Notes under the pieces: generated by a model
What the model was told of the DNA's origin: nothing
The model's database searches: none
The model's input: only the letters and a program-made list of their open reading frames with translations
Position numbers and translations under genes: made by a program
Shown here: one piece after another, positions 2,015 through 54,893 of the stretch
Numbering within the stretch: position 1 is the stretch's first letter
Layout: each line of letters starts with the position of its first letter
Origin: Eutypa lata
Lineage: Eukaryota > Ascomycota > Sordariomycetes > Xylariales > Diatrypaceae
NCBI GenBank assembly: GCA_022661535.1
Contig: JAKULF010000022.1
Span: 122,962 to 186,961, forward strand
DNA length: 64,000 bases
Reading direction: 5' to 3'

Positions 2015-3154
2015 TTGAGTCATCATATATCACGTAAGATACCTGTGAATCCCCTTACAGGTAAATTGGATATTTTAAATAGCAGTAAATTTTACGATAA
2101 AAAGAACTTTTCTAGTAAAAGGGTTATAAAAGGGGGTAATAATAAAAATTCTGGAGATAAGACTAATAGCAATAGTATAAATAATAAAGAGAAAGTTAAT
2201 TTAAACACTTTATTTTCTTATCTTGATATAAGTAAGTTATATTTAATAAAAGTAGCTTGAATTAAAAAATATTCCTTTATTATATTCTCTATACTTGCTA
2301 TATTGTTTTGTGCATCCTTATATATAGTTGTATTTAAAGATGAAGTTAATTTGTTTGTTTACTACTCTACTTGGTCTATCATACCTGGCTTATGTATGGT
2401 TTATTTAATGTATAAAGATAGAAATTATTGTATTAAATTATCTGTTAATAGTATGCATTTGATAAGTAACTTAGCATTGCTTAGTTTAATTTTAGCTTCA
2501 GTTATTTATATTGTAGCTAATCTCTTAATTTCTGATCTTTATTTACTGTCCTTTAGTGAATCCTTTGATTTATCAAGAAAGATTTTCGGGATTTGATTAA
2601 TCTTGAAAATAACAGTTTCGACTATAGAAAAGGTTTATTCACTTAGAAATGAATGTAATAAATTTTATGAAGCATTATTTTCAATATTATTATCTTTAAT
2701 GGTTTTAGCTTTTTTTTATCAAGTAATATTTGTTATATTCGGTGCTGTATTTCTTGTATTCGAAGATATAAAATTAATTAAATTTAAATGTGAATTAAAA
2801 TATAAAAATAATTCAGAAGTTAAACATGAATTAATCATTGTAGATAAATCGCTTGATCACCAATTAAAAAAGGATTCAAATTCTAAATCTGAATTAATAA
2901 CTAAAGATAAATCTCTTAATCATCATTTTAAGAAGGATTATCCCACAGTTGTCAAAGCAAAAGGTCATTACCTTTTTACTAAAGATGGTAATAAGGTTTT
3001 TGATGCAGCTTCAGGTGCAGGTGTGGCAAGTCTCGGATACAGCAATTTAGAAATAATCGCGGCCATAGCTCAAAAATATTGGACCTTCATATTTGGCATC
3101 TTCGTTTTGAAAAGATTATGATGTATTAAGATTACAGGATTTTCTTGTGAATAG
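2015..3154 (+). CDS. membrane protein ORF running in frame into an aminotransferase start
   Basis: With TGA as Trp this is one ORF. The frame is open further upstream, through the atp9 exon; 2015 is a TTG and no ATG precedes it. The N-terminus contains SHHISRKIPVNPLTGKLD, then three or four hydrophobic segments (about 2260-2340, 2370-2410, 2455-2545, 2680-2765). A duplicated hydrophilic motif follows (ELI..DKSL.H..KKD, at about 2829-2872 and 2889-2935). From 2939 the frame encodes the start of a class-III aminotransferase (FTKDGNKVFDAASGAGVASLG). The match is lost after an A-run at 3072-3076, where the aminotransferase continues in another frame. I do not recognise the membrane part. Confidence 0.6.
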
Positions 3155-4241
3155 CACAAAGGGTGCATTGAACAAAGTCTATTTGACAGGGTCAGGTTCA
3201 GATGCTACCGAAGCAGCGGTAAAACTAGCTCGTCAATTTTACTACGATCAAGATCCGGAAAGTCCACGTAAAGTTATCCTAGCACGTTCACAGAGTTATC
3301 ACGGAGGTACTATAACTGCTTTAAACTTATCAGATATGGAAATTAGACAAGCACCATATAAAGCGATTTTCGCGGATATTGTTCAATACGTTTCTTCATG
3401 TTTTCCTTATCGTCAACAATTTTATGGTGAGTCTGATTTAGACTTCGTGGCTAGAAAGGCCGCTGAATTAGATACCAAATTCATAGAGATAGGGCCTGAT
3501 AAAGTTATGGCCTTTATTCTTGAGCCTGTTAGTGGGGCTGCACTTGGGTGTGTTACAGATGTCCCTGGTTATCTCACAGCGATGAAAGAGGTTTGCCATA
3601 AACATGGTGCTCTTTTAATATTTGATGAGGTAATGTGCGGAATGGGTAGAACCGGTTTTCTCTATGCATGTCAAATGGAAGGAGTTTGACCCGATATTTT
3701 AATAATAGGTAAGGGCTTAGCAGCTGGATATTTTCCCCTTGCGGCGATCTTGGTTGCTCCGGAAGTTTGGGGGTCTTTAAAAACTGAGCAGTTTATTCAT
3801 GGACTTACCTTTGATGCTATACCTGTTGGAGCGGTTGCTGCCCTTAAGGTTCAGGAAATTATTATAGATAATAATCTGCTAAATAATGTAAAAAAACAGG
3901 GTGACTATCTAGGTAAACAATTAGAAACTAAATTGAGTGGCCATCCAAATATTGGAGACATTCGGGGACGGGGTCTTTTTTGGGGTCTGGAATTTGTTAG
4001 AGATGCAGAAACTAAGGAACCATTCGACTCAAAATTTAGGATTTCTCAGCGAATTGTTGACTTAGCCAAGTCGCCTGAATTTAATATGACATTTTATCCT
4101 GGGACTGGTACCGTAGATGGGGTTAATGGGGACCACATCATTATTGCACCTCCATTTACCGTTACAGAGCAAGATATAGACCATATAGTAGAGGTAATCA
4201 CAGCTGTGGTTGATATAATTTTTAAAGAAATTAACAAATAA
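2939..4241 (+). pseudogene. class-III aminotransferase, copy 1 (frameshifted)
   Basis: PLP-dependent fold-type I (class-III) aminotransferase, split between two frames by an indel at the A-run 3072-3076. The 3' part is open to 4241 with TGA as Trp. Motifs: GSGSDATE (cofactor phosphate loop, with E changed to D relative to copies 2 and 3), YHGG, FDEVMCGMGRTG (Asp to the PLP ring nitrogen), GKGLAAGY (Schiff-base Lys), [10 protein letters not shown]. At the Trp of GLFW the codon is still TGG, while another Trp (near 3687) is TGA, so codon use is mixed. Apart from the frameshift it looks complete. It could be a decaying copy, a read error, or a frameshifted fusion anchored by the preceding membrane ORF. 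Confidence 0.8.
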
Positions 4242-8592: not shown

Positions 8593-10028
8593 AGAAAACA
8601 AATCATATGTTAAATTTTTTTACTCCAAATCAAAGTTCTAGGTTAATTTTTTTTACTCCAAACCAAAGGCCTAGGTTAATTTTTTTTACTCCAAACCAAA
8701 GGCCTAGGTTTAATTTAGGTCCTTTAAATATTAATAGTGTATTTTTATCTTTTTCTTTTTATTTTTTTTTTTTATTAGGTTTTTACTTAACTATAGATTT
8801 CTGGTTAAATCTTTATAATAGTAATATTTCATGTTCAAATTTAGAACATATTAAGTTTTATCAGATGTATTTATTTATTATAATTATAGATTCTATTATA
8901 ATTATAGTAGGTTTTTATATATATTACCAAAATAATATAACTAAAAATATACAAAATTTATTAAAAAAAAGTATGTTAATAGTATTAACATCAATTGCAA
9001 TATTAGTAGGGTCAATTATAGATTACTATTTAACTGGTTTAATTTTATTAGATCCAAAAATAACTTTTTTTGGAATCCTTGAAGTTATTCTTTATAAATT
9101 AGATTGAAAAGATAATATAAATATAGTTATAAATGGAAAATATATTTTTAGATTTTTAGGTGGTTTAGCTGTTTGTTTTTCTTTAATTATTTACAGAGAA
9201 AATATAAAAAATTTATTTAATACTATATACCCACCTATAGTTTTAATAAAAATTGGTTTTTATTATTGTAATAAAAGGGATAATAGTTATTTTTGTAATC
9301 TAATATCAAATATAAATAAAAAATATTTAGGTCTTAAGAAAAAAACATCAGAGGGTTGGGATAAAATAAATCCAGATGATATTAGGAAGGATTTATACTC
9401 ATCAAGTAATAATGGGCGTCTTTATAAATTTAGAAAAATAAAAGGATATTTAAGTAGAAGTATCTTATTTTATCTAATAAAAAAAACACATTGAATTATT
9501 GGATTGTTTTTATTTTTAAATAGGACTCCTAATCTTAATTTTCATTTAAATGAGTATGCAAATAATGAGGTGTTTTGGTTTGATAAATTATCTATTTTAG
9601 ATATAATGGAATTTATTTTTATTATATGTACAATTTATAAAATCTTCGAAATAATACTAGATTTATGGGTTATTTCTGATAAAAAAACCTCTGTGTTTAA
9701 TCCAAACTATCCTATTTTTTACCCAGGTTTATCTAGAAATCAAAAAATTTATTTCCATTTAGGTGTATTTTTGTCTGGTTTATTAGCTCTGTTAGGAGCA
9801 TTAAGTAAACTAATCTTTATTTATTTAATACTTTGTCAAATAAACTTAATCTCACCATATATAATATCACATTCAATTTTTGAATATATCGCTTATATAT
9901 TGGATAATATTTTTAAATTATACGAGTCTGAGGTTGAGGTTGAACAAAACCCATTTTCTTCTTTTAAATTACTTTTTGGTTTTACTTTTTTTTTTATTAT
10001 AATACCGTCTATACTTATTAAGTCATAG
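8574..10028 (+). CDS. orphan multi-pass membrane protein overlapping cox2
   Basis: ATG 8574 lies inside the last cox2 codons (19-nt overlap, different frame). The frame is open to TAG 10026-10028 with a TGA=Trp near 9105 and another near 9491, giving about 484 residues. Near the N-terminus are three 11-residue repeats with core FFTPNQ(S/R)(S/P)R. At least six hydrophobic segments follow (about 8730-8815, 8862-8930, 8980-9065, 9150-9185, 9605-9660, 9750-9850 and the C-terminal end). I recognise no family. The overlap suggests expression from the cox2 transcript. Intactness over 1.4 kb in AT-rich DNA argues that it is or was recently selected. Confidence 0.65.
8610..8708 (+). repeat. three tandem 33-nt repeats in the orphan ORF
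   Basis: Units 8610-8642, 8643-8675 and 8676-8708. The last two are identical (TTAATTTTTTTTACTCCAAA ...) and the first has a few changes. The unit length keeps the reading frame. Confidence 0.9.
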
Positions 10029-10631: not shown

Positions 10632-12260
10632 ATGTTTATATTTTCTATCGTACCCTTTCATCTCAAATCTTTGAGGTGGGAAAACGCTTTTAAACAACGA
10701 ATTTATTTTTTTTGCAAACGCAGTCAATACAAACACATCATACTAACACATCTTACTTATACATCTTACCTGCACATCATACTAACACATCTTACAAACG
10801 CATTACCCTCCATTATGGCTTCTTTAGCTAAAACAAGTGAAAAATTTTCGGAGGGGGTTGACTTTCATTATAGTATTAACCAAACCCCTCCCGAAGTTGA
10901 GCGAGCAAAGGGAAATTACCTTTTTACAAAAGAGGGTAACAAGATATTTGACGGGTGTTCAGGTGCTGCTGTTTCTTGTATTGGTCATGGGAATAAGAGA
11001 GTGATCAAAGCAATACACAAGCAACTTAAAACCGGAGCTACCTATCTCCCGTCTGCTATTTGGTCCAGCAAAGTTGTCAAGAACTTGCGCAAGGAACTCA
11101 TTCGAGGTACGGATGAGAAATTGGTCGGAGTCTACTTGGCTTCGTCAGGTTCCGAAGCGACAGAGACTACCATGAAGCTGGCTCGCCAATATTTCTGGGA
11201 ACAGGGCCAGAAAACTCGTGTAAATTTCATTGCTCGAGAACGCTCCTACCATGGCAACACCCTCGCTGCCTTAGGTCTATCAGAATTTAAGGTCCGGCAA
11301 GAACCTTACATTCCCTTACTCCCAGAATATGTCCATCGCATTTCCTCCTGTTATCAATATCGTCAACAAAGGGATGGCGAATTGGACCAGGAGTTTGTGG
11401 ATAGAAAAGTCCAGGAACTTAAAGATAAGTTCCAGGAGTTAGGTCCAGATACCGTGATAGCTTTCGTGGCAGAACCAGTGGTTGGTGCTGCACTAGGGTG
11501 TGTACCACCTCCTCGAGGCTATTTGAAAGCCATGAAGGAGGTTTGCGACCAAAACGGAGCACTCTTCATCCTCGATGAAGTTATGTGCGGAATGGGCAGG
11601 ACTGGCATTCTGCATGCGTGGCAGGCAGAAGATGCTCTTCCTGATCTTCAAATGATAGGAAAAGGATTAGGTGCAGGATATGAACCTTTATCTGGGATCC
11701 TTATATCAAAAAAGGTCGCAGACGTTTTGATAGAAAAGGGTAAAGATTTCATCCACGGCTTGACCTTTCAAGCTATGCCTGTGCAAGCTGCTGCAGCCTT
11801 AGAGGTTCAAAGAATCATTAGGGAAGAAAACCTACTAAATAATGTCTCCAAACGAGGTATGGAATTAGAACAGCTTTTGAAAGCTGCTTTAGGCAATCAT
11901 CCACATGTTGGAGACATCCGGGGACGAGGTCTTTTCTGGGGTATAGAGTTTGTTAAAGACAAACAGACCAAAGAACCCTTCGAATCGCAAGAAAACCATG
12001 CATATGCTATTCAGAAATTGGCCTTGTCTGACTATAATTTTTTAGTTTATGCTAGCATGGGATGCAGTGATGGCATAAATGGGGATGTGATCATTATTGC
12101 ACCTCCATTAAATGTCAGTGAGAAAGATGTGAAGTATATAGCTAAGACGGTAGAGGCGGTGGTTAACCAACATTTTGCTGAATCAGGGGAAAAAAAAAAA
12201 AGTAAAAAAGAGAAAAAAATGAAAAAATTTCTTAGATCTGCTTTCTCTCTTTCTTTTTAG
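10632..12260 (+). CDS. class-III aminotransferase, copy 2 (intact, nuclear-like)
   Basis: Class-III PLP aminotransferase with every expected motif: SSGSEATE (about 11144-11167), YHGN, LDEVMCGMGRTG (about 11570-11605), GKGLGAGY (Schiff-base Lys near 11667), DFIHGLTFQAMP and [11 protein letters not shown]. All Trp codons are TGG, and G/C-ending codons are much commoner than in flanking genes. The likely native start is ATG 10815 (MASLAKTSEKF) in the context CATTATGGCT; the upstream 60 codons read like a 5' leader. The C-terminus is a Lys-rich low-complexity tail. Closest in organisation to uncharacterised fungal class-III aminotransferases (BioA/omega-aminotransferase-like); the substrate is unknown. 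Looks like a recent nuclear gene insertion. Confidence 0.85.
   Translation: MFIFSIVPFHLKSLRWENAFKQRIYFFCKRSQYKHIILTHLTYTSYLHIILTHLTNALPSIMASLAKTSEKFSEGVDFHYSINQTPPEVERAKGNYLFTKEGNKIFDGCSGAAVSCIGHGNKRVIKAIHKQLKTGATYLPSAIWSSKVVKNLRKELIRGTDEKLVGVYLASSGSEATETTMKLARQYFWEQGQKTRVNFIARERSYHGNTLAALGLSEFKVRQEPYIPLLPEYVHRISSCYQYRQQRDGELDQEFVDRKVQELKDKFQELGPDTVIAFVAEPVVGAALGCVPPPRGYLKAMKEVCDQNGALFILDEVMCGMGRTGILHAWQAEDALPDLQMIGKGLGAGYEPLSGILISKKVADVLIEKGKDFIHGLTFQAMPVQAAAALEVQRIIREENLLNNVSKRGMELEQLLKAALGNHPHVGDIRGRGLFWGIEFVKDKQTKEPFESQENHAYAIQKLALSDYNFLVYASMGCSDGINGDVIIIAPPLNVSEKDVKYIAKTVEAVVNQHFAESGEKKKSKKEKKMKKFLRSAFSLSF
10734..10795 (+). repeat. 23-nt direct repeat in the leader of aminotransferase copy 2
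   Basis: CACATCATACTAACACATCT plus TAC at 10734-10756 is repeated exactly at 10773-10795. It lies upstream of the probable ATG 10815 and looks like untranslated leader rather than coding sequence. Confidence 0.85.
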
Positions 12261-13398: not shown

Positions 13399-13668
13399 AT
13401 GAATATTACACTAATACTTTTTTTAATAGGGATTCTAGGATTCGTATTAAATAGAAAAAATATTATATTGATGCTAATCTCTATTGAGATTATGTTATTG
13501 TCTATAACATTTTTAATATTGGTAAGTTCACTTAACATTGATGATATAATTGGCCAAACATATGCTATATATATTATAGCAGTAGCAGGTGCAGAATCTG
13601 CTATAGGTTTGGGTATTCTAGTAGCTTTCTATAGATTAAGAGGAAGTATAGCAATAGAATATAAATAA
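13399..13668 (+). CDS. nad4L: NADH dehydrogenase subunit 4L
   Basis: 89 residues in three hydrophobic helices ([15 protein letters not shown]..., ending [12 protein letters not shown]). Complex I proton-channel subunit. Its TAA shares one base with the ATG of nad5 (13668), the common fungal nad4L/nad5 overlap, so the two are co-transcribed. Complete, no intron. Confidence 0.97.
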
Positions 13669-16600
13669 TGTATTTAGTAATAATAATTTTACCTTTATTA
13701 GGGTCTATAGTTTCTGGCTTTTTTGGTAGAAAAGTTGGAGTTAGCGGAGCACAGTTCATTACATGTTTTAGTGTAATAGTCACTACAATACTAGCAGTAA
13801 TAGCCTTTTTTGAAGTAGGGTTTAATAATATCCCTGTTTCAATTGAATTATTTAGATGAATAGATAGTGAATGATTTAATATTTTATGAGGTTTTGAATT
13901 TGATAGTTTAACAGTGTCCATGTTAATACCTGTGTTAATTATAAGTTCTTTAGTTCATATTTACTCAATTTCGTACATGAGCAACGATCCTCACGTACAA
14001 CGTTTCTTTAGTTATTTAAGCTTATTCACTTTTATGATGATTATATTGGTTACAGCTAATAATTATCTATTAATGTTTGTAGGATGAGAAGGTGTAGGAG
14101 TTTGTTCATATCTTTTAGTAAGTTTTTGATTTACTAGAATTGCAGCAAATCAAAGTTCTATATCTGCATTTTTAACTAATAGAGTGGGTGATTGCTTTTT
14201 AACTATAGGTATGTTTGCTATTTTATGATCTTTAGGTAAGAAAAAAAATTCTAAAGTTTTTAGAACATCGAAAAATAAAAATATTAAATTTTCTTTATTA
14301 TATAATTATAAAACAGAAACTTTACGTAAAACTTCTCAATTTAATTCTATATCTTACGGGCAAGTAAGAAAATATTCTTCTTTTGGGCCCTATTTAGCGG
14401 GATTGATAGAAGGAGATGGACACATAGCTGTACAAGATAAAAATACAGAAAAAAAAGTAATACATAGACCTAAAATAATTATTGCTTTTAATATACATGA
14501 TAAAGCTTTAGCTGATAAATTATCTATGGATTTAAAAGTAGGGAAAGTTATTAATAAACCTAAAGAAGGTCATGTAATACTACAAATTTTATCTAAAGAA
14601 GAAGTTTTGAAAATAATTCATTTAATTAATGGTTATATGCGAACACCTAAAATAGAAGCTTTACATAGAGCTATTTATTGAATAAATGTAAAAGATAATA
14701 GTTCTATACCTTGCTTAGGTTTAGATAAATCTCCTTTAGATAGTAATGGTTGATTAGCAGGGTTTACAGACTCCGACGGGTGTTTTAGTATAACTGTTTA
14801 CGATCGTAAGAAAAATGGTGTATTTTTAAGAACTAGTGTTCAAACTTTTTTCCGTATAGAAGTAAAACAGAATTATTCTAGAGAGGTTACTCTTGAACAA
14901 GGGGGATCTAGTTTTTTTTTTATTATGAGTGAAATTGCTGCTTTTTTTACAGTGAATTTGTACACTAGAACTCGAAAAACTAAGGATAAAGTGTTTTATG
15001 CTTTTGTTGCGATAGCTCATAATTCAAGAAGTCATGAAATAGTTCGTAAATATTTTGAAAAGTTTCCTTTATACTCTTCTAAGTATTTAGCTTATAAGGA
15101 CTGATGTCTTGTTCAAGATCTTCATAGAGGAAATCTAAGTAAAGATAATCTGGAAAAAATAAAACATATAAAAAATCAATTTAATAGTAAACGAAAAGTA
15201 TTTGATTTTTCGCATCTTAATTCTTTACAAATTAAATAAATTGCCGTGGGAGATATTAATATCTCTCTTATTATATAACCATATGCGGGAAACTCCTAAA
15301 GTCTTTTTATAGATTATTGTGGAAACTTATATAAATAGGATGTACACAAAACTTAAAAATTAAAAAGAATAGAACTATGTGACAATGGATAATCCGCAGG
15401 AAACAGATAATAAAAAATTATTAAAAGGTTCCTCAGAGACTACACGTTATACCCCTTATTTTACGATAATATATAATAATATATTAGCTTTAAGGGTGAA
15501 GATATAGTCCAAGTTATAGCTGAAAGGTTATATGTTTCTTGAATTTAGATTATGCAACAGTTTTTTCTTTGGCGCCATACATTAATGAAAATATTATAAC
15601 TGTTATAGGAATATGTTTATTAATAGGTGCTATGGCCAAAAGTGTGCGCTGATGTGCTTTATTTCGAAATGGAGACAAAGTCTCTAAACATTGACCAATT
15701 ATGTTTCTGACTACGAAGTTAGATGGAGGGGAAAACCTAACATTGAACATAGCATCTTCGTATAATGGAGAGATTAAACCCAATCAGGATGGTTGAGTGG
15801 CTCTTCTAGTCAATACTTCTAAGGTTAAAACTATACTGTTTGAAGTCTATCTACCAGGTGTCTTAAGCCATGGACTTCGACTCGCCTGAGACAGGTCGAA
15901 TGTGGCAAATCCTTATCTTGAACTTTTGGATAGGATTATGGTCTGCTCACAACCGAATTGCATAAACAATTTAAAGGTAGAGAGTGGACAACCTAAGGGA
16001 GTTAATATTCGAAATTTAAGAACTTCAGGATTGCCTAAGGTCAGAAATGGCTATGGCTACAGAGGAACTGAAGTACCCGTTAGTTTTATTAATTTATACA
16101 ACTCTATGAAAATAGGGTGAAGGGGAAGAGTTCCAGGTCTTAATCTTAGAATGTTATCCACTAGTGCTGGGAGTCCAGTACAGATAAAATCTAACACTAA
16201 TGCGAAACTTCTAAAACTAGCTGAACACTGTAAAAAACACCCGAACGATGTAGTTAGTATGGATAAGATATACAGATTAATGTATGATCCTAACTTATAT
16301 AAATTAGCGTATAATACGCTAAAAAGTAATTCCAGTAATAGGACTCCAGGTATAAACCCTACTACTTTAAATGGAATATCCGTTAAAGCTATATATGATA
16401 TAATCTTAAAACTTCAAAATGGTACCTTTATATTTCCCCCGGGTAGAAGAGTTGAAATCCCTAAAGCCAATGGCGGAACGAGATTTCTAACTATTACTTC
16501 TACAAGAGATAAATTAGTGCAAGAAGTGATAAGAATGATTCTTGAACTTATTTTTGAACCTACCTTATCAAAATTTAGTCATGGTTTTAGAACAGAAAAA

Positions 16601-19600
16601 AGTTGCAACACTGCTCTTAGAGAAATCAAGATGACGTTTGGCGTAGCTACTTGATACATTGAAGGAGATATTTCTAAATGTTTTAACTCTTTCAACCACG
16701 AAATCTTAATGAATATAATTGAGAATAAGATTCTAGATAGAAGGTTCACTGATTTGATTCGAAAAGCTTTGAATGCAGGGTACTTCAAATTCGAAGTAGA
16801 CAAAGATTCAATAATTGGTACTACTCAAGGTTCTATAATAAGCCCTATTCTAAGTAATATTTATTTAAATAAATTAGATAGATATATAGAGTTTTTAAAA
16901 TCAGACTTTGACACTGGTGTAGAACCCAAGTTAAGTTCTGAATATTATTCCATGGATCCAAGTTTCAAAAAATTGGTATACACTAGGTATGCTAATAATT
17001 GAATCCTAGGAATAAGGGGTTCTAAAAAAGATTGTTTAATGCTATTAGAAAAAATTGGAACTTTCTTGAAGGATAAATTAGAGTTGGATTTAAGTTCGGA
17101 TAAGATTCTTGTTACTAATGCGAAGGAAGGTAAAGCTCTTTTCTTAGGAATGAAAATTGTTAGACCAAAGTTAGAAAAAAAAAGCCCATTTGGCTATAAT
17201 AAGATAAATAGTACGAAGATTAGACTAGAAGCTCCTAAACGGAAAATATTAGGTAAACTGTATAAAGAAAGATTTATTAAAAAAGGGAAGATTGCACCTA
17301 AGTTTACCTGACTAGGTTACAATAAAGATACTATAATAACCTTATACAATTCAGTATATAGAAAATATATCCATTATTATAGTTTTACTCATAATTTTTC
17401 TAGCTTCTCTTCCTTACTCCACTTTATATTTAAATCTTCTTGTGCCAAATTACTTGCAGCCAAGTTTAATCTAAAAACTCAAAGGCAAGTATTAGCTAAA
17501 TTAGGTAAGGATTTAAAAGGGGTGGACAGGATAGGATTTGTAAGAAAAAAAGAAAGTATAAACCTTAAATCGTATATAGATATTAATAAATTGAGTTTAG
17601 CATTAATTATCTTATATATTCTTTTTACTTTTCCAGCCTTAATTATATTTATTTCTATTTTTTTTAAGGAAATATTCAATAATTGAAACAAAATAAAGAA
17701 TTTAGGTTTAATATTAAGAGAAAAATATACCCATCCTAGAATAATATTTATAAATTGTATTTATCTATTTGTCTCAGGATTTATATTATATGGATTAGAA
17801 AATATTATTTTGGATATATTACTATTTATCCCGCTTTTTTCAATGATTATCATTACAGATGTACCTTATCTACTATATCTAATAATAGCAAAATTTGAAG
17901 ATGTAATCTTCAAATTTAAACAAAATAAAGTGGCTTTTTTATTAGATTTCTTATTAAAGTGAATAGTTCTTATTATAGTACGATTTGGTCTTATTAATCT
18001 CTGTTTTTTTCTTAATCCGTTCCTATCTAATAATATTATTGACTTTAAATTTTTAGCTAGTAAGATATTAAGTATAACACCACTTAATATTTTATTCCCT
18101 ATTTTCATTGAAACTCATGGTATTAAATTATGATATGCTTTTGATATAACTAAAGTATTACAATCATTGAATTTGAAGTTAAGTAATTATCCTTTACTTA
18201 AATTAGTGATGGATAATATTTTAGTATCATTAGGAGAGGTTTGGTGATTGGAATATAATATACAATCTGAAATAAATATTATAAATAATATTATCAGTAG
18301 TACAAAGAGTGAGTTTATTATAAATGAACCTAACACTACTACTGAAATAATGGTTATAGATAAAACCAAGGTTATAAAGAAAGTAGTGCCTAGAAGTTTA
18401 AGTAAGATGTTACTAGATTGAAGGGATGATAAATTAAATAATTTATCTAATTATTATAAATTTTGGATTAAATATAAATATGTATACGGAAAAAACATGC
18501 ATACTATAAAACTTAATCTTCTTCTAAAGTCTAGTATACCAAAACCTTCCGTTATGGATTTTGCAGAGTGACCTAAGCATAAAAAAGCTTCGGTTATGGA
18601 TATGATAAGCTTAGATGTATTTGAACCTTTAACCCAAAAAAATTTAGTAAAAATTGCTTCATTAACAGAGTTGTCCGACATAGTCGCACCAACTGATAAT
18701 GAGGTTATTGTGTTAACAGCAAACCATCCTACATCTGAAAATGTAGATAAAGGTAAAAGTAAAGCTTCAATAACTCAAGATCTTCAAGAAATAAGCTCTG
18801 CATCTTCCTCAGATGCTGAAATAGAAGAGACTATCCATGAATCTCGCCTAACTTATTTTAATAGTCAGAGAGTAGGAGAGTCTAGTAGTCAAGGGGGTAG
18901 AGGTGAATATGGTTTAAGTGGTATTCATAACGGAAATACTCAGATAGAGGTAATAAATCCTTGCAATATTCCATTACCCATTGAGACTCTGGATGAGCAT
19001 ACTGAATTATTATACCCTGGAGAACCTAGATTTCTTAAGGAGGCTTATAGTGATGAATCTAGCGATCTTACTAGTAGCTCAGGGAGTATTAGTTCTTTAT
19101 TTGACAAGATAAATAGTAAAAGTAGCTCAGGTAAACTTACTATAGAAAAACTAGAAAAGCTACATTATAAATATCGAAGAGCTACGTTTACAGATCCGAT
19201 AACTTCTCATCTTGAGTGCTTAATAGGGGGATTAGCTAATAACACGGAGTATTCAGATATTGCGCATAAATACCTTCACTCTGTTTCTACCTTAGAAGAC
19301 CTTATTGAAATGGAAGAAGCTCTAACGAGGGATATAGATATAGCTTCTGGTTTGGTTTTAGAACAAATAAGAAATGATGCTGTGCTAGAGCCTCTGGAAC
19401 AGTCTGTGAGAGATGAATACTTATCCATTATGTCCTCTTCAACATCACTACTTTTAGGTGAACGGGATGAACTGTTTAGAGATATGTCGATAGGGGATTA
19501 TGCTCAACTTATGACTAGAAGGGAAGGAGCTATATCTGCTTGAAGAAGGTCTATCGTTAACGAAACAGCTGTGGGGGTTTGAACCAAATTAACTTGACGA

Positions 19601-22600
19601 AGTTATGCATTAGCTAATCCTGGTTTAGGTTTAGATTCAGGTGCTCCAACTGAATACTTAGGATCTGAATATGACTCTGACTCTGACTCTGACTTAAAGT
19701 CAGAGTCAAACTCATAAAAAAAAACCAAAGTTTGGTTTTTCATATTTAATCGAGAAAGTGTAAATTTACAGTGTAATCAATAGTATATTAGGATTGGAGA
19801 GCCGTATGATAGGAAACTATCCCGTACGGTTCGGGAAAGGGTGCGTATACTAGTAATAAGTATACGTATCTAGTTCATTCTCAAGTTGGTCTTCATGTAT
19901 GATTACCTATGGCGATGGAGGGTCCTACTCCAGTTTCTGCTTTAATACATGCAGCTACTATGGTAACTGCCGGGGTATATTTATTAATACGTTCATCTCC
20001 TTTAATCGAATACAGTTCTACTATTTTATTGCTATGTTTGTGATTAGGTGCTATTACTACTGTTTTTAGTTCTCTTATTGGATTATTTCAACAAGATATT
20101 AAAAAAGTTATAGCTTATTCTACTATGAGTCAATTAGGTATGATGGTTATAGCAATAGGTTTATCTTCTTATAATGTAGCTTTATTTCATTTAGTAAATC
20201 ATGCTTTCTATAAAGGATTATTATTTTTAGGTGCTGGTGCTGTTATTCATGCAGTAGGAGATAACCAGGATTTCAGAAAATATGGAGGGTTAATTTCATT
20301 TTTACCTTTAACATATTCTGTTATATTAATAGCAAGTCTTAGTTTAGTTGCTTTCCCTTTTATGACAGGATTTTACAGTAAAGATTTTATATTAGAATCT
20401 GCTTTTGGTCAATATTATTTTAGTAGTATAGCTGTATATGTAATAGCAGTAATAGGTGCAATATTTACTACTTTGTACAGTATTAAGGTTTTATATTTAA
20501 CTTTCTTGAGCCCCGCTTTGGGACCTAGAGTTTATTACAATAATGCTCACGAAGGGGACTTCTTTCTTACTTTACCTTTAGTAGTATTAGCTATATTCTC
20601 TATTTTCTTTGGTTACTTAACTAAAGATATTTTCTTAGGGTTGGGTGCTGGATTCTTTTCAGATAACTCTATTTTTATTCACCCTAATCATGAAATAATG
20701 ATTGAAACAGAGTTTGGAGTACCTACTTTGTTTAAACTTTTACCTTTAGGCTTCACGGTATTTTTTAGTGCATTTGCTATTATTGTATCAGAATATTTAC
20801 CTGATTCTCTAATTAGCTTTAAATTTTCTAGAATTGGTTACAATATTTTTGGTTTCTTTAATCAAAGATTCCTTATAGAAATGTTCTATAATAAATACAT
20901 AACTAACTTAGTCTTAAATTTAGGTGGACAAACTACTAAGGTTTTAGATAAAGGTGCTATAGAATTAGTGGGACCATTTGGTATGGAAATTGGATTAGTT
21001 AAATTAAGTAAAAATATATCTTCGCTTAGTACAGGGGTTGTTACTTCATATGCATTATATATCTTAATGGGCTTAATCACATACGTATTATTAGGTTATT
21101 TTTTACAATTTAATCTTAGCATGGATTTAGTCTTAATATTTATTTTAGGTGTTATTTCTCTTATGTATACTGACTACAACTCATATCATAATTATAAATT
21201 AAGCGATAAAGTTTTAGAGGCATCTTTTTTGCCTCCTAAGACACCAATGTTAATAGATCAACCAATGATAAATATTTCAAATAGCAGACCTGTTAACTTT
21301 TTGACTTTTAATGTTCCTCTCCAGCTTCGCAGGAGTAGAATTATGAGGTTTTATTCTACGAGTGGAGATAGTAATACATCAAGTTTTTTTACCCTAATGG
21401 GTCCTCTTAATAAAAGCAACCTAAAGGCTACAAAAGCAAAAGGTGTGTACATTACTACAAACGATGGCACAGTATATTTAGACGCATGTTCAGGTGCAGG
21501 TGTTTCTTCTATTGGTCACAGGAATATGAGAGTCATTAATGCAATAACAAAGCAGAACAAAACAGGTATAACTTACCTGTCTTCATCTTGAGGAAATGAG
21601 GTGGCGGATAACTTGTGTAAGCAAATCATAAATGGAACAGATGGTAAGATGGCCAGAGTATACTTAATTAATTCAGGTTCTGAGGCAAATGAAACTGCAA
21701 TTAAGTTGGCCTATTCTTACCATTGTGAGAAGAATGATACTAAACGTATTAATATTATTGCTAGGGAGGGTTCTTATCATGGAGCTACCTTTATGGCTTT
21801 GAGTATATCAGGATATAATACTCGTAAGAATTTTTACAAATGAATACTAAAGTCTGATAATATCCACTACGTTTCCGCATGTTACTCCTACCGTCAACAA
21901 CTAATAGCTGAATCTGATTCAGCTTTCGTTGCTAGAAAAAAAGCTGAACTAGAAGCCAAATTCATAGAGATAGGGCCTGATACAGTTATGGCCTTTATCC
22001 TTGAGCCTGTGGTTGGGGCAGCCTTAGGATGTGTTCCTTTTGTACCTGGTTATTTAAAAGCGATGAAAGATGTTTGCCATAAATACGGTGCTCTTTTAAT
22101 ATTTGATGAAGTAATGTGCGGATCCGGTAGAACTGGAACTTTGCATGCGTGGCAGGCAGAAAATATTGTACCTGATATTCAAACCATGGCCAAAGGACTT
22201 GGCGGAGGATATGTACCTATTTCTGCCGTATTAGCTACTGAAAAAGTAGTTAAAGTAATAGGAAAAGGTAGCGGGGAATTCGTTCACGGGCAGACCTATG
22301 AAGGGATGCCTGCAACTGCAATTGGTGCTTTAGAAGTTCAGAAATTTATTCAAGATAATAACTTACTAGAAAATGTAACCATACAGGGGGCATATTTAAG
22401 TGAACGTTTAAAAGCTGTTTTAGGTAATCACCTTAATGTTGGAGACATTCGGGGACGAGGTCTTTTCTGAGCTATAGAATTTGTGAAGGATAAAGGAACT
22501 AAAGAACCCTTTAACTCTAAACTCGAGATAGCAAAAAAGATAGCAGATTTAGCCTTCTCACCTCAGTTTAAATTGCTAATTTACTATGGCGGAGATGCAG

Positions 22601-22752
22601 GTTATCATGTTCACATAGATCGTGTTATTATTGCTCCTCCATTCATTATTAAAAAGAAGGAGATAGATTATATTGTAAAGGTTCTATCAAAGGTTGTTCA
22701 TATAGTTTGTAATGAAATTAATAGCAATAGTTCGGACAAACATGGAGGTTAA
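13668..22752 (+). CDS. nad5: NADH dehydrogenase subunit 5 fused to an aminotransferase (3 exons)
   Basis: Complex I antiporter-like subunit. Exons 13668-14237, 15542-15643 and 19879-22752. Exon 2 ends ...LLIGAMAKS and exon 3 resumes [20 protein letters not shown], so the NAD5 part is complete; residues to about 655 look like normal NAD5 (to about 21165). No stop follows. The same frame runs through a hydrophilic linker, an RFYSTSG segment (21346-21366) and a full class-III aminotransferase to TAA 22752. The predicted fusion is about 1181 residues, with three TGA=Trp codons in the aminotransferase part. The segment just after helix 1-2 encodes the usual [12 protein letters not shown]. Confidence 0.93.
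14238..15239 (+). CDS. LAGLIDADG endonuclease fused to nad5 exon 1
   Basis: In frame with exon 1, stop at 15237-15239. Motifs [11 protein letters not shown] (about 14397-14430) and [14 protein letters not shown] (about 14750-14792). An R-K-Y-S-S segment at 14367-14381 precedes the first motif. Clearly homologous to the cox1 intron 2 ORF (shared [17 protein letters not shown]). Intact in code 4. Confidence 0.9.
14238..15541 (+). other. nad5 intron 1, group I
   Basis: Core after the ORF: GCGGGAAACTCCTAAAG, TGGATAATCCGCAGGAAAC, GGTTCCTCAGAGACTACACG and GATATAGTCCAAG (15285-15512). Terminal G at 15541; exon 1 ends in T. Confidence 0.88.
15644..19717 (+). CDS. group II intron RT/maturase with altered active site and long C-terminal extension
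   Basis: Open in frame with nad5 exon 2 across the whole intron, about 1358 codons. RT blocks: [64 protein letters not shown]. The catalytic YADD box reads YANN (16987-16998), so both Asp are lost. Domain X follows ([25 protein letters not shown]). After about 17550 there is no HNH nuclease. Instead come about 6 hydrophobic segments (17590-18080), then about 350 hydrophilic Ser/Glu-rich residues ending in an Asp-Ser repeat. Maturase activity is plausible; reverse transcription is not. The extension matches nothing I know. Confidence 0.85.
19799..19832 (+). ncRNA. group II intron domain V
   Basis: 34-nt hairpin with AGCCGTATG pairing to the CGTACGGTT side and a GAAA tetraloop; catalytic heart of the intron. 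Confidence 0.9.
21343..22752 (+). CDS. aminotransferase domain, copy 3 (C-terminal part of the NAD5 fusion)
   Basis: Class-III PLP fold in the nad5 frame. Motifs: [21 protein letters not shown] (about 21670-21693), [17 protein letters not shown] (about 22100-22136), AKGLGGGY (Schiff-base Lys near 22191), [10 protein letters not shown]. All catalytic residues seen in copy 2 are kept, with no frameshift over 1.4 kb. Codon use is AT-rich and three Trp codons are TGA (including GLFW, TGG in copies 1 and 2), so it has adapted to mitochondrial coding. It ends ...SSDKHGG. It may act as a matrix enzyme after cleavage, or as a membrane-tethered domain of complex I. Confidence 0.88.
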
Positions 22753-23476
22753 AATACTTCTTATCTTACAAATAAACGGTACAATGGTGTTAGAGTTAAT
22801 AAATTTTCTACGCAAGCAATAGTCCGTGATTTTGTAAGAGCTTTTGATAAACCTTTTAATAATTATAAGGCTAGCACGCGTACTATAGCACATCGTTAAT
22901 ATCTGAAAGTCTTAAAAATAAAGGTGGTAGTTTTTATGAGTGGTTTGGTGGTGGGTCAATATAAATAAATTAGTAGGTAATAATTGATCAATAAGTCAAG
23001 AAGATTAGATTTTATATTTTAATTAAAATTTGGTATGAATAAAGTAAGGTAAATTAACTATTAATTATACTATTTTAAGAGTTAATCATACTTATATGCT
23101 TTGCCCACGCCTATATTTATTACATTAACCTTTATGGTTAGGGATATGTATTAGTTATTAACACCTAAATCTTTCTTTTTCAATTAAGATGAGGATCCAC
23201 TTTTTTAACTTTTAGTTTGTTGAATAAGGGAGAAGAATAATAAAATTAAAGCCCTTATATTATTAAAAACAGATACATATTTTATTTAATAATTAATTTA
23301 ATTCTTGTTTCTTTAATAAATTAGTAGATAATAATTGATCAATAAGTCAAGACAAGCCTTTTTAACTTTTTTTACAGTGCATTATTAATACCTTTCACAT
23401 TAATTGTATATAATACATATAAGAGCCTTTATTAACTCTAAATTTTACTAACCTAAATTATAATAATAATCAAAAC
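22753..23476. repeat. nad5-cob spacer with a 38-nt direct repeat
   Basis: 22964-23001 (AATAAATTAGTAGGTAATAA ...) is repeated at 23315-23352 with one change. About 22770-22900 contains a short open stretch (NKFSTQAIVRDFVRAFDKPF) that looks like an ORF tail but has no start. No tRNA found. Confidence 0.7.
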
Positions 23477-26400
23477 ATGAGAATATTAAAAAGTCATCCT
23501 TTATTAAGATTAGTTAATTCGTATATTATTGATGCATCAGAACCTAGTAACATTAGCTATTTATGAAATTTTGGGTCATTATTAGCTGTTTGTTTAATAA
23601 TCCAGATAATTACTGGAGTAACATTAGCGATGCACTATAACCCTAGTGTATCAGAAGCATTTAACTCAGTTGAGCACATCATGAGGGACGTTTCGAATGG
23701 TTGGCTTGTTCGTTACTTACATAGTAATACAGCTTCAGCTTTCTTCTTTTTAGTGTACTTACACATAGGTAGAGGAATATATTACGGATCTTATAGATAT
23801 CCAAGAACATTAGTTTGAGCTATAGGTACTGTTATACTTATACTTATGATGGGTACAGCTTTCCTGGGTTATGTTTATAGCCCGAAATGGTTTAATATAA
23901 GTAATAAAGGAAATATAAAGTATAACAAAGTAAATAGTAAAAGATGGTTTAACCAAAGCATGGTAAAAAGAGGATATTCTACAAATCGTCCTTCAGATAA
24001 TATTGAAATTTCTGAAAGACTAGAAATAATTCTTCAAGAATTAGGTTTAAACCCGGTATATGTTTATGAAAATTTAAATTTAGAAGATACTAGAAAACAA
24101 ATATTAAACGATACCAGAGGTTTAAGCGGTATATACATGATAGTTAACAAAATAACTAAAGATTATTATATAGGTTCTGCGGCAACCAATAGATTTTATG
24201 CTAGATTCTGTAACCATGTTATTTATTTCAGAGGTAGTAAAATAGTTAAATTAGCAATTAAAAAATATGATTTGAAAAATTTTGCTTTTATTGTATTAGA
24301 TTTATATCCTAATATTGTTACCAAGGAAAATAACAAAGAATTATTGGATTTAGAAGATAAATATTTAAAATTGTTAGTGCCTAACTATAATATTTTGACC
24401 GAAGCAGGTTATAGTTTTGGCTACAAACACACTGAAATTGATCGTAAAAAGATGAAAGATATTTATAGTGATGCTAGACGTGAAATAATAGGTAATATAA
24501 ACAAAGGTAAAAAGCTTTCTCCTGAAACCATAGAAAAAATGAGAGAAAAGGCTTTAAATAGACCTCCTATGTTAGATATAACTAAACAAAAGTGTATAGT
24601 TAATACAAGACCTGTTGTTTTGTATAACTTGAATGGTACTATTTACGGTGAATATTATACTATTTTGGATGCAGCTAAATCTATAAACTGTGGAGAAAAA
24701 ACTATTAGAAGAGCACTAAAAACAGAAAAAGGATTAGTGAAAAGACAATGAATAGTAAAAGATTTGTCAAATAAATAGTTATCTTATTTCCAATTTTTTG
24801 TTATACTTTATTTTTATATTAAATCATAGTCCCGCGAGTAACAATCTTTCTGCAATCTTTATAGAGAAAAAAAGATTAAAGTGGTATAACCCGACGGGGA
24901 TATAGAATAGTCTTTAAGATTATTTGGCGATGTTAGTGAAAACGATCAAAGAAGTTTAAACTTTAAGATCGTCGGTTATATAAATGATCGCGACAGACTG
25001 GGTCACTAATGGGTGGCTGAAATGCTGCTTAATGCACAGGCGGAACTTTTGGTTAAATTAATTTAATTAATAGAATATACGAATTAAAAGTTATTCTAGC
25101 TTATTATCTTTTTAATAAGTAAGTTTGTATGTTTTACCTTATGGTCAAATGTCTTTATGAGGTAATAGTTTGCCTCAAATGTATAACTAAAAATTAAAAA
25201 CTTTATGTTGATTGAAATAATACTATATAAATTGTATCTTAGGGTTTTAAGTTAAAATAATCCAAGTTATATGATGTAAATTATTTTATACCTAACTCAA
25301 CTAAAAAATAAGTTCCTCCATAGTTTGTCAATCTTTCCTTAATCCGTCAATCTGTATAAGAAGATATATTGACTAGCATAATCTCATTTCTTCGGAGAGA
25401 TATATCGCCAATAGGTAGTATCCCTATGTACTCCTAGTTCTTCAAACCCAGCTTTTTTCAGCACCTTTTGACTTCCAGTGTTTTTCACATGAGCTCTACC
25501 CCACAATTGTTCTGTCTTATCCTGGTAATCCATGTCGGGAAGGTTGTCTAATTTAAGATGTGTAGTCATGCGAGGTAGACTCCACCAAAATGATATGAAG
25601 AAGGGCACGAACTCAGAAGCGTACCCTTTACCCCAGTGCTTCTTCTTTAAATAGTAATAGATGGATGGCCATCCATTACTATAAATATGCACTCCTACCT
25701 CACCGATTAGCTCTCCCTCATTATCGTCTGATTTCTTCAAGAATATTCCTAAGTAGTAATGATTCGGTCGAAAAGGAGATTCTGGTTGTAGATCTTCGAG
25801 GTTTTTTCGAGTTTCACTCTCAGTTTCACTCTTCTTGTCTGGCTTGCCCTCGCCTCCTCTCAAGAGATGCAGAACTTCGGGATCCTTTCGGAGGGAGTGG
25901 TATGCATCGAGGTCCGAAAGAAGAAGTGGTCGAAGGATGAAGTGATAGGTGATAATAGGTTCATGTAGGTTACCCGCAAGGGGACATGGACGAGTCGTAA
26001 GGACCTTATCTTTATAGAAAAGGTCTTTTGTTAATAGCCAATGGAAGAGGTTTTTGTCCAATACATTTCGATAGACTTGAAGGTCAAAGCCTGTATTTAA
26101 CAGTACGTTGTAAGCAATAAAAGTATCGAGTTGGTAAGGAATCCCTGGCCTAGTCCAAGCGTATACTAGCTCTTTTGTCTCAGGTATATTCGTACCTTGG
26201 AGGTTGGTAGAGTCGGGGCTGGGAACTGCTAGGATATTTACTTTCTCGCGGGGTAGATTCCACCAAAATTCCATAAAGGTTGTTGTAAACTCAGTTTCGT
26301 AGTGTTGGCGCCAGTGTTCTTTTTTGAATATAAACCGAAATTCAGGCCATCCGGTTAGGGTAGATGCAAATTTATGTACCCCGCCTTCCCCTATCAACTG

Positions 26401-29400
26401 GCCCTCGTGTTTGTCTTCCTTCTTAAGGAAGATTCCGAAGTATACGTGCGAACCCTGGTATGGTGGTTGTAGACGTTGGAGCTTGTTCTGAGTTTCATTC
26501 TTGTTCTGATCGGGCTTGCCTGTGTCTGAAAAAGCCATAGTTTCGGGTTGGCTTCGAAGGGTGTAGTATGCCTCGAGGTCCGATAGAAAAAGAGGTCGAA
26601 GGATAAGACGATCAGAATGAATAGTAGGTAGGTTATTCTCAACCAGAGGAAGCGTGGTCGAGACAGTAATATGAGTCGGTGTGGTGGTGGTAGCAGCCAT
26701 TGTGATTGGTTGGATAAGTGCTAAATATGTAAATGCGTATAGAGATTCTGGTGCTGGATTGTAACTTTCTAAGTTGATAGAGAACAAGAGAAAAAAAGGG
26801 TAAGGAGAAGGTGATTGCTTATCCTTATATACTGTTTTTCTTTGTCAAAGTCACATGTAAATTTTTATTTGATTTCTAAGCAGGAGCTGGGATATTAGGA
26901 GTTCTCCCAGATTCTACTCATCGAAGGTTTACTATGACTTATTGTGGATCCGCATAATTTCAGTGATCATCATGTGAAAAGGCCAGATGATCAAAGATAA
27001 AACAAAAGATAAGGAGAGAACAGGTATGATTGGATAGTTTACATTGGAGGGCGGGATTTCCGCAGTCTGACTCATGCTAAGGAGGATGAGGTGTCATGGT
27101 GGCGAGCTTGCTTATCCACATTTTCCGAATTAAGATTAGATATTTATGCGATCTGACTCATGGTTTACTGAAGATGATGTGTAATGGCGACTCAAGGGAA
27201 TGGAGATTACGCGTCATGTGGCGAGGACGGAAGTTCTGCTTACCCCCTGCAAGATTGATGCCACAGTTAGGTCTTGATTTCGTATTACTCCTGCGTAGCC
27301 TGGGTGTGGCAAAATGCCGAGAAAGATTTTCATTGAGTCAGAAGACTGAAAAAATCTTGCCAGATGTAGATCATAGATAAGAAAACCTGTTTTCTTTGGC
27401 TCTACAAGCTTACCTCTGTGACAAGCTTACGTCTGCTTTTTATTTCTAAGCAACCCATCGGTCTCAAAAATAAAACAAGAGATAAGGAGATAATGGATAT
27501 GATTGGGTAAAAGATTGAGGGATTTATGCAGGTGTAGCACCAAAACTGATCTTTCGTATATGTTTTGTCAATATGGTATGACTCATGACTAGTGCCAAGG
27601 TGGCAACCCTAATGATGTGAATCACCGGAGCATATGTTCCAATGCGACTTTGCTGGGAAAACGGTAAGCTTTGATTTCTAAGCAAGAGACAAGGATGAAG
27701 AAGTAGAAGAGATCTGTTAGTGGTTCAAATATTGAGGGATTTATGCGCGATGACTCATAGATCGATCAATAATGATGCGTGATGGGTAGGTTACGCCATG
27801 TGATTTGATTACGCTTATCTATTGGCCATAGTCTAGGATAAGAAAATCTTGACAAATGCAGATCTTGGATTAGAATATGTAATAGGATAAGATAAGAATT
27901 TATCATCCCATCCTAATCGTTTAAGTTGAAATTTACCTATCCTCAATTTCTATTTAAGCTAGATCCTTTCCCTTTACTTGTTTCAAGAGTACCAGACCTA
28001 TATACAATAAGTTCTCTTTTTACCAAGTCATCTTTTTTACTCATTGTATTTATCATGGATCTTCCTTATTTTCCAGCACGTACCTATCGTTATGGTTAAA
28101 TACATACTCAGGATCTTTTTGTCGAGAACTCATCTCAAAGGATGGACGGTCTACCTACTATGACTTCATCTCAGAATAATGAGATGAAGTCAGAATATGA
28201 ATCGACTCTCTCTGTTACAGGCTCGAATTCTCGTACAGAGATTCTTCAAGGTCCAGACTCCAACTTGCACCTTGAAGAGATCCATGATGTATCTGAGTCA
28301 CCAAAGACTGTGTTTGACGGTCTTCCTTGTGACACCAAGCTTTCGAGTTCTGAGAGAATGGATGATCTCCCCGACTATGAATCCTCTCAAACTCTTTATT
28401 CTGAACCGTCCGTGATATTAATTTCGGACGATTCTTATTCAAAGACCTTACCAAGAAAGGGTACCCCTTTTCCTGTTACCACTACCGACATCTCTGATCC
28501 AGGATCAGAAAGGACAAAATGCTACACGAAGGGCACAAGCTCTTCTTCGATATTTACGGGTTAGTTGTTCCAGGGTGTTCTCCTTAATTTAACTAACTTC
28601 TTGCTAGCGAAACCTCATCTTCATCATGATGGCTATTCTTGGCGTTATGGACCGACTCATCCTAGTAAGGAATGGGTTAGAAAGTATTGCAAGCAACATG
28701 GTCTAATACCTTCTTCCTTGCCTCGAACGACCTCTTCAAAGGTGGACATTGTAAAAAAACGGCCTACTTCGAAAACCCTCCTTCAAAAGTTGAAGGAGGT
28801 TGTTAGACAACACTTGGAAGAGGAGGATGACTTTGGTGTGAAAGTTAGTGCAGGGTATTCATCTTGGAGGGAGTCAAAGATATCGGATCTGACGATGGAA
28901 AAGAAAGAAAAAGCTATAGAGTTCAGTCTTGATTTTAAGTTTATTAGTTTTACATAGTTGCATAATTGAGTATCCATCTATAGGGTTCTACGAAGAGAGG
29001 CAATATTTACTTAAATTCTCCCTTTTTCAAAATTATGCAGCAATACTAGTGAAAACGGTCAAATATATTTGTTTAGTATAAAGACCGTCGGTATAGTATA
29101 ATATCGCTACAGACTGGTCCACTGGTAGGTATCTAAAATGATGCTTAATGTACAGTCGGAGTCTTTTTTCAACATATCATTAGCTATATTGAGACACAAG
29201 GCTTTATACTAAATTAAGATTATTATATTTAAATAAGTATAAAGTACAGGGTTTGCTTGTTTTAAACATGAAAAGCTAAATTCCATAGCTAGAATGAGCA
29301 AATTAAAGACTTGGCTACAGTTTAACCGCGAAGTAATAGCTGTAGCAAAATACCACTAATTGCTGGAAACTCTTCTATTCAGATGACAATCAGCAGGGAA

Positions 29401-32159: not shown

Positions 32160-32358
32160 GTTAAATATTCGTATAATTATCTAGCTTCTTTTTTATAACT
32201 ATAGATTAATGAAATACATTAATTATATACTTTTTTTTAATAAATTTAAATTTATTATATGAAGAATGCTTATGCCTGTGTGTATCGTTCAAGATCAGGA
32301 GGATAGGCACATACATAGTGATAATGTGACAAATGAAGGTTTGAAATCTTCTATTAGT

Positions 32359-54873
<22,515 letters not shown>

Positions 54874-54893
<20 letters not shown>

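Follow-up and report, generated by a model that had tools for sequence, protein, structure and literature searches.

Organization of the nad5 locus

How a metabolic enzyme comes to stand in one reading frame with NAD5, a membrane subunit of complex I, and what becomes of such a chain once it is made, are the questions raised by the nad5 gene of a mitochondrial contig of Eutypa lata. The contig (C25, 186,961 bases) belongs to an assembly of 54.5 Mb in 29 contigs, and the window analysed here is its last 64 kb, which is fungal mtDNA read under code 4. The first ~41.7 kb of C25 recur at its end, aligned over 40,075 bases with 1 mismatch and 39 gap positions and over a further 1,502 bases at 98.9%, so that the real circle should be ~145 kb.

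Three nad5 exons lie within the window. The assembly contains another mitochondrial contig, C23, in which exons 1, 2 and 3 follow one another with no intron between them; this confirms the splice sites. At the start of exon 3 the intron-less gene has ...GCCAAAAGT directly joined to TCTCAAG, and the start at 19879 given by an earlier, sequence-only reading of this DNA is thereby borne out. The features of the locus are as follows.

13668..14240, plus strand: nad5 exon 1, 3' end approximate (Pfam Proton_antipo_N/M; identity with the intron-less C23 gene stops at C25:137200, window 14239)
15541..15643, plus strand: nad5 exon 2, start approximate, end at 15643 exact (C23 reads GAMAKS-SQVGLHV in one frame)
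15644..19878, plus strand: group II intron with a reverse transcriptase/maturase ORF at 15539-19717 (RF00029 at 19797-19878; RVT_1 and Intron_maturas2; missing from C23)
19879..21180, plus strand: nad5 exon 3, NAD5 proper (Pfam; alignment with the solved ND5, 7zm7)
21181..21420, plus strand: joint, residues 425-504 (open in one frame; pLDDT < 50 at 426-490)
21421..22698, plus strand: class-III aminotransferase domain, residues 505-930, with Y623 H624 G625, D733 and K762 (Pfam, alignment, structure model)
22750..22752, plus strand: stop codon of the fusion (open reading frame end)

Exon 3 (19879 to ~21180) continues through a joint of 80 residues into the aminotransferase without a stop before 22750-22752, and the frame 19909-22752, read under code 4, comprises 947 open codons. 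Within this single frame Pfam finds Proton_antipo_M (154 bits), NADH5_C (22.4 bits, below the cut-off of 28.2) and Aminotran_3 (PF00202; 285 bits against a gathering cut-off of 30.5, residues 505-930), which upholds the claim that NAD5 is fused in frame to a complete class-III aminotransferase. In the alignment with the Chaetomium ND5 of solved structure (7zm7, 679 aa), residue 672 falls on fusion residue 424 and NAD5 proper thus ends near 21180; the normal end had been put near 21165. The passenger lies behind the last nad5 exon, not in an intron, has its own stop, and is preceded by a complete NAD5.

The joint, residues 425-504, is open in one frame, with stops in both of the others. Stop-free stretches of 70 codons make up 0 of 508 in the spacer 22753-23470 and 683 of 3921 across the frames of the whole contig, coding sequence among them. 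It might be supposed that an assembly indel had deleted a stop between two separate genes, and C25 does have indels, as the gap positions in the overlap of its ends attest. Yet NAD5, joint and enzyme share one frame, with stops barring the other two across the joint, and the independent fusions of the enzyme to NAD5, NAD4L, NAD3 and ATP9 in public data, described below, indicate that the window fusion is not just an assembly error; an artefact of this kind is very improbable indeed. We regard the nad5-aminotransferase fusion as real and probably working. In the structure model the NAD5 part is poorly predicted, with 406 of the 947 fusion residues at pLDDT < 50, and the model leaves the topology of NAD5 unsettled. 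A hydrophobic stretch is found at residues 403-421 (mean 2.11).

The aminotransferase domain and its sister copies

The enzyme part is confidently modelled and adopts fold type I, omega-transaminase-like (Foldseek top match 5kqw_B, E 6.8e-31, TMt 0.86). H624, D733 and K762 are invariant in all 34 rows of an alignment hand-picked among the database matches, and Y623 is nearly invariant; we take K762 to be the Schiff-base Lys, D733 the catalytic Asp and residues 623-625 the YHG motif. The retention of these residues had been claimed, as had TGA codons for Trp inside the enzyme, and both statements hold, the enzyme part containing 3 TGA versus 1 TGG. The best NCBIfam model is PRK07483 (NF005685), 'aspartate aminotransferase family protein', with a cut-off of 485; the nad5 copy scores just under it (469.8) and the copy at 10632 above it (498.7). 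The latter is one of two further aminotransferase genes carried by the window.

10632..12260, plus strand: second aminotransferase, stand-alone, 542 aa (Aminotran_3 251 bits; PRK07483 498.7 bits)
2015..4241, plus strand: third aminotransferase, preceded by a membrane-like module (frames 2015-3154 and 3093-4241, which overlap; Pfam)

The frame break near 3090 in the third copy may be an assembly indel, and its membrane-like module is, by eye, common to P0105, P0125 and P0130. The three window copies are 51-53% identical, with dN of 0.38-0.41 and dS of 1.4-2.0; the lower dN points to selection on the protein, with the reservation that dS approaches saturation. Members of the family are also encoded in the nucleus, the nearest found in a whole-genome search being ~50% identical over its longest exon. 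An apparent fourth copy at C25:2-273 was rejected, as it represents the overlap of the contig's own ends.

Independent fusions of the same enzyme

Protein searches (best 120 of 8000 and best 120 of 165 matches, with fusions read from precomputed Pfam domains) revealed the enzyme joined to other mitochondrial proteins. Among the matches listed it is joined to NAD5 in P0031 and P0053, the arrangement of nad5 followed by PF00202 that was to be looked for elsewhere, to NAD4L in P0051, to NAD3 in at least eight entries (P0124, P0126, P0128, P0129, P0131, P0154, P0170 and P0180) and to the ATP9 family in P0218; one of the fused entries among the matches listed bears the name NADH-ubiquinone oxidoreductase chain 3 and comes from Nemania diffusa. 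The sequence-only reading knew of no described NAD5-aminotransferase fusion, which is in line with the literature searched, but the public databases do contain fused entries, namely P0031, P0053 and the Nemania diffusa chain 3. An ATP9-like start was also seen by eye in P0106, P0114 and P0122. The string PPKPH, presumably part of a COX1 end, is found in P0106, P0121, P0122 and P0218, and also in the window ORF 54573-54893. Enzyme-exo70 proteins of nuclear genomes were left out of the fusion count, as these probably result from the merging of gene models.

In a tree of 50 chosen rows the window nad5 copy groups with P0123, P0121, P0122 and P0114 (100/100), apart from P0031 and P0053, and the other two window copies are placed in two further branches. 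Holding the three NAD5 fusions together, a group chosen after an earlier tree, is rejected by the AU test (p-AU 1.9e-39). On this phylogeny the NAD5-aminotransferase fusion is taken to have arisen at least twice.

A block exchanged between C25 and C23

C23 is 93,279 bases long, of which 40,000 were examined. Over these, long parts are 99.2-99.9% identical to C25 with few or no mismatches, others are 93-98% identical and others are unmatched. Exon 3 of C23 is identical to the window for 599 bases and diverges from 20478; counted from 19909, there are 0 mismatches in 569 bases, after which 530 of 628 bases are identical. At the protein level the two NAD5 ends share 183 of 210 residues in 190-399 and 10 of 23 in 400-424. 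The C23 protein reaches a stop at residue 438 of the fusion frame and bears no enzyme, and identity between the contigs is back at 23389, 88 bases before cob. The loss of identity over 20478-23388 marks the nad5 3' end and the enzyme as one exchanged block, which contains or is accompanied by the following features.

20478..23388, plus strand: block exchanged between C25 and C23, comprising the divergent nad5 3' end, joint, aminotransferase, endonuclease stump and spacer (identity breaks)
22753..22952, plus strand: stump of a linker and LAGLIDADG endonuclease start, frame lost (86% and 87% identical to P0123)
22964..23001, plus strand: 38-bp repeat, copy 1 (also at C25:50741)
23315..23352, plus strand: 38-bp repeat, copy 2 (soon behind the endonuclease stump)

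No aminotransferase from C23 is among the genome's aminotransferase matches listed, and the C25 stretches with the other two copies are absent from C23 over the 40,000 bases compared. C23 itself has indels, for example in cob, as expected of a thinly covered contig. The picture as a whole would be expected from heteroplasmy, from a mixed sample or from recombinant molecules alike. An open NAD5 without the enzyme is present in the same assembly, which shows that NAD5 can dispense with the cargo in this cell. Over 210 NAD5 residues P0031 has 150 in common with the C25 end and 155 with the C23 end.

An element that replaces a gene's 3' end would be recognized by an insert-free allele, here C23, and by a second version of the gene end, both of which are present; in place of a linked intact endonuclease there is the stump that ends at 22952. 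In P0123 the enzyme, 89% identical to the window's nad5 copy over 254 residues, is fused in frame to an intact LAGLIDADG endonuclease, and the joint between them reads RAYSTS. The copy of the 38-bp repeat at C25:50741 lies inside a gene that we take to be atp6. Further traces occur elsewhere on C25. A nad5 3' end in decay lies at C25:44516-44700 and is 86.6% identical to the window nad5 and 73.7% to that of C23; C25:69620-69760 is what a deletion has left of an enzyme copy; and at C25:121905-122044 part of the membrane module adjoins a nad3-like end.

Such scattered debris, the enzyme's absence from C23, the frame break in the copy at 2015-4241 and the nuclear aminotransferases of the family would suit a tolerated passenger in decay, whose tail may or may not be translated and whose enzyme stands idle until it is lost. 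The 947 open codons, the intact catalytic residues and a dN well below dS between the copies speak against decay, and we consider it unlikely.

Candidate processing sites at the joints

The published consensus for MPP and Icp55 is RX(F/Y/I/L)|(S/A)(S/T) (PMC8847149). It is matched by RFY|ST at residues 480-484, between NAD5 and the enzyme, and the RFYSTS that had been reported at 21346 is indeed located there. Similar sites were found in other joints of the window.

21346..21363, plus strand: RFYSTS, site of MPP/Icp55 type; Ser483 (21355) is the predicted new N-terminus (consensus PMC8847149)
4856..4870, plus strand: RFYST, cox2-GIY joint (motif search of joints)
14367..14381, plus strand: RKYSS, nad5-LAGLIDADG joint (motif search of joints)
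23969..23983, plus strand: RGYST, cob-GIY joint (motif search of joints)
53442..53456, plus strand: RLFSS, cox1-GIY joint (motif search of joints)

The motif R.[YF]S[ST] occurs 10 times in C25 ORFs (96 plus-strand ORFs of at least 100 aa, non-repeated part) versus 1.42 times in shuffles (maximum 5, 500 shuffles). In the window a site is present in 5 of the 7 exon-passenger joints tested and in 0 places elsewhere in these seven proteins, with 0.04 expected and a maximum of 2 in 5000 shuffles; the fusion joint is itself among the five, and without it the count is 4 of 6. The seven proteins are those in which an exon part is combined with a passenger, out of 18 window ORFs run on Pfam (60 ORFs listed), and the joint limits were set by eye for the start of the first LAGLIDADG repeat (241) and from the ND5 alignment for the end of NAD5 (424). 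The two joints that hold no site are those of the cox1-GIY fusions at 32209 and 49724. A minus-strand control gave 0 sites in 27 ORFs, which is weak since these amount to only 4,019 residues. RMLST in the group II ORF at 15539 agrees with the consensus in its wider form and stands outside the seven-joint count.

Among cob-GIY joints from other sequences (99 cut out, from 120 relatives among the matches listed) the strict site is present in 59 of 99, where 0.57 is expected from shuffles that ignore kinship, and in 84 when Cys is allowed for Ser. As these proteins are related, the 99 joints are not 99 events, and the 30 joints left after thinning similar ones give the fairer figure of 20 strict sites, or 24 with Cys allowed. 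Eight of the 21 cob-GIY proteins outside the scored set were inspected, of which seven read RGYSTS and one RGYHTS; L045, a relative of the cob-GIY gene, is without the site. Scans of viral contigs gave one NAD5 locus, one distant aminotransferase and three cob loci, and the strict site is present in one of these five. It is absent from the fusions P0031 and P0053 (NAD5) and P0051 (NAD4L), and other N-terminally extended aminotransferases contain it in only 2 of 25 cases, a number reached by 25 of 1000 shuffles. As sites of this type are enriched at joints yet missing from P0031, P0053 and P0051, RFYSTS is likely the place where the window fusion is cut, though likely not the means by which all such fusions are. 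The predicted released enzyme has 465 aa, compared with 449-467 aa in eight free-standing relatives (P0004, P0005, P0009, P0016, P0020, P0021, P0046 and P0096).

If the chain were left uncut, complex I would bear the aminotransferase as a lasting domain of NAD5. Such a domain would agree with the missing stop, with cleavage not being obligatory and with the NAD5 fusions P0031 and P0053 that lack the strict site, and the hydrophobic stretch at 403-421 could be the last membrane helix, the tail then being in the matrix. It is made improbable by RFYSTS in the joint, by the enzyme-free NAD5 of C23 and by the partners of the enzyme, which vary among relatives so that a specific role in complex I is unlikely. 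Of the two fates that had been proposed for the chain, release at RFYSTS has gained support from the fit to the consensus and from the 5 of 7 joints, and a lasting extension of complex I has been weakened by C23. The enzyme could instead be made separately, from the ATG at 21343 that directly precedes RFYSTS or from a cut messenger, the joined frame being incidental. However, the joint has retained an open frame, and ribosomes on nad5, meeting no stop after NAD5, would run on, which leaves separate synthesis with little probability.

A model for expression of the enzyme

The best reading, to which we give somewhat better than even weight, is that the aminotransferase is a translational hitch-hiker, made as the tail of NAD5 and freed in the matrix as an enzyme of ~465 residues. 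A mobile or recombining segment of mtDNA would swap the nad5 3' end, with the aminotransferase as its cargo, and would carry along a separate version of roughly the final 235 NAD5 codons, which would leave NAD5 complete. Because start signals of its own are presumably missing, the enzyme would be translated as the tail of NAD5 in a single chain. With the NAD5 C-terminus presumably on the matrix side, MPP and then Icp55 may cut at RFY|S (residues 480-483), the predicted products being NAD5 with a short tail and a putatively active PLP enzyme of ~465 residues beginning at Ser483.

The same elements allow a wider reading, for and against which we see the chances as evenly divided. Fungal mtDNA may encode true polyproteins in which a core gene carries a passenger, either enzyme or endonuclease, with MPP/Icp55-type sites at the joints and entry via captured core-gene ends; the ancestor here may have been NAD5-RFYSTS-aminotransferase-RAYSTS-endonuclease. 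The presence of such sites at joints would then mean that the import proteases, which are encoded in the nucleus, act as well on chains synthesized within the organelle. The locus suggests how a foreign metabolic gene gets expressed in an organelle with gene-specific start signals, namely by riding a core gene and being cut off by import proteases. Oversized NAD, COX and COB entries in many fungal mitogenomes may hide enzymes, and the fusion offers a way to test the tolerance of complex I for a soluble enzyme at the C-terminus of a subunit.

Relation to known systems

The fusion is a variant of two known things, mitochondrial aminotransferase genes and exon-fused passengers. What is new here is the exchanged block of C25 and C23, closed by a homing-endonuclease stump, and the MPP/Icp55-type sites at joints. 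Replacement of a mitochondrial gene's 3' end by a mobile ORF is known, for example in Allomyces atp6. The window resembles such elements in its exchanged gene end with a foreign ORF and in the allele without the insert, and differs in that its cargo is an enzyme and its endonuclease only a stump.

Exon-fused intron endonucleases ('core creep') are described in excerpts of two papers as using the start of the core gene (PMC8393795, PMC7487136), and fused intron ORFs are said in the second to be released by proteolysis (PMC7487136). They share with the window fusion a passenger on the core gene's start and an R-x-Y-S-T site in the joint; the core-creep passenger is an intron product and is spliced away, whereas that of the window is a metabolic enzyme behind the last exon. 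The yeast Arg5,6 tandem precursor, for which an excerpt reports internal MPP cleavage (Friedl et al. 2020, via PMC8847149), likewise joins two proteins in a single chain, separated by an MPP-type site. It is synthesized outside the mitochondrion and imported, whereas the window chain is mtDNA-encoded and would be made in the organelle; as it is neither nuclear-encoded nor imported, it may work like the Arg5,6 precursor without being a member of that class.

In the literature searched, seen partly as excerpts and with subscription journals mostly outside it, no NAD-aminotransferase fusion and no MPP site in mtDNA-encoded fusions was recognised, and the excerpted Nemania diffusa report (PMC7748715) makes no mention of a fusion. 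Mitochondrial aminotransferases have been named as possible useful cargo in excerpts of PMC7902536 and PMC8393795. Class-III aminotransferase genes are known in the mtDNA of Annulohypoxylon stygium (PMC6140425) and Pestalotiopsis fici (PMC11277600), for which the excerpts, unlike the window fusion, offer no fusion to a NAD subunit, no comparison of alleles and no cleavage site. According to its excerpt, the A. stygium gene lies between atp9 and cox2, with a fragment elsewhere (PMC6140425). This arrangement resembles the window copy upstream of cox2, to which P0130, named A. stygium, is 68% identical.

Additional features of the assembly

In the window, the aminotransferase gene at 2015-4241, the reading frame of which is broken near 3090, is preceded by a membrane-like module. 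By eye, this module is common to the related proteins P0105, P0125 and P0130, and is also seen within P0126, P0129, P0131 and P0180, in which NAD3 is joined to a class-III aminotransferase.

The mtDNA also carries GNAT acetyltransferase ORFs, the longer of which has a third-position GC of 0.50.

GNAT acetyltransferase ORFs
window 25339-26856, minus strand: 505 aa, two Acetyltransf_3 matches (Pfam)
C25:68811-69461: a relative, followed by a deleted aminotransferase copy

The last Pfam match in the group II intron ORF of nad5 (window 15539-19717, 1392 aa) stops at residue 683, and its C-terminal ~700 residues gave no match at E 0.001. The long ORFs at window 8496-10028 (510 aa) and 48166-49284 (372 aa) gave no Pfam match at this threshold.

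Besides C25, the contig that contains the window, the assembly includes a second mtDNA contig, C23 (loci L052-L055). Comparison of the two reveals C23 to be an intron-poor mosaic, with some stretches identical to C25 and others different or missing. Additional nad4-like pieces, diverged or decayed, are found on C25 and on another contig, C19.

Diverged or decayed nad4-like pieces
C25:40088-40399
C25:42024-42557
C25:47094-47750
C19:42612-44803
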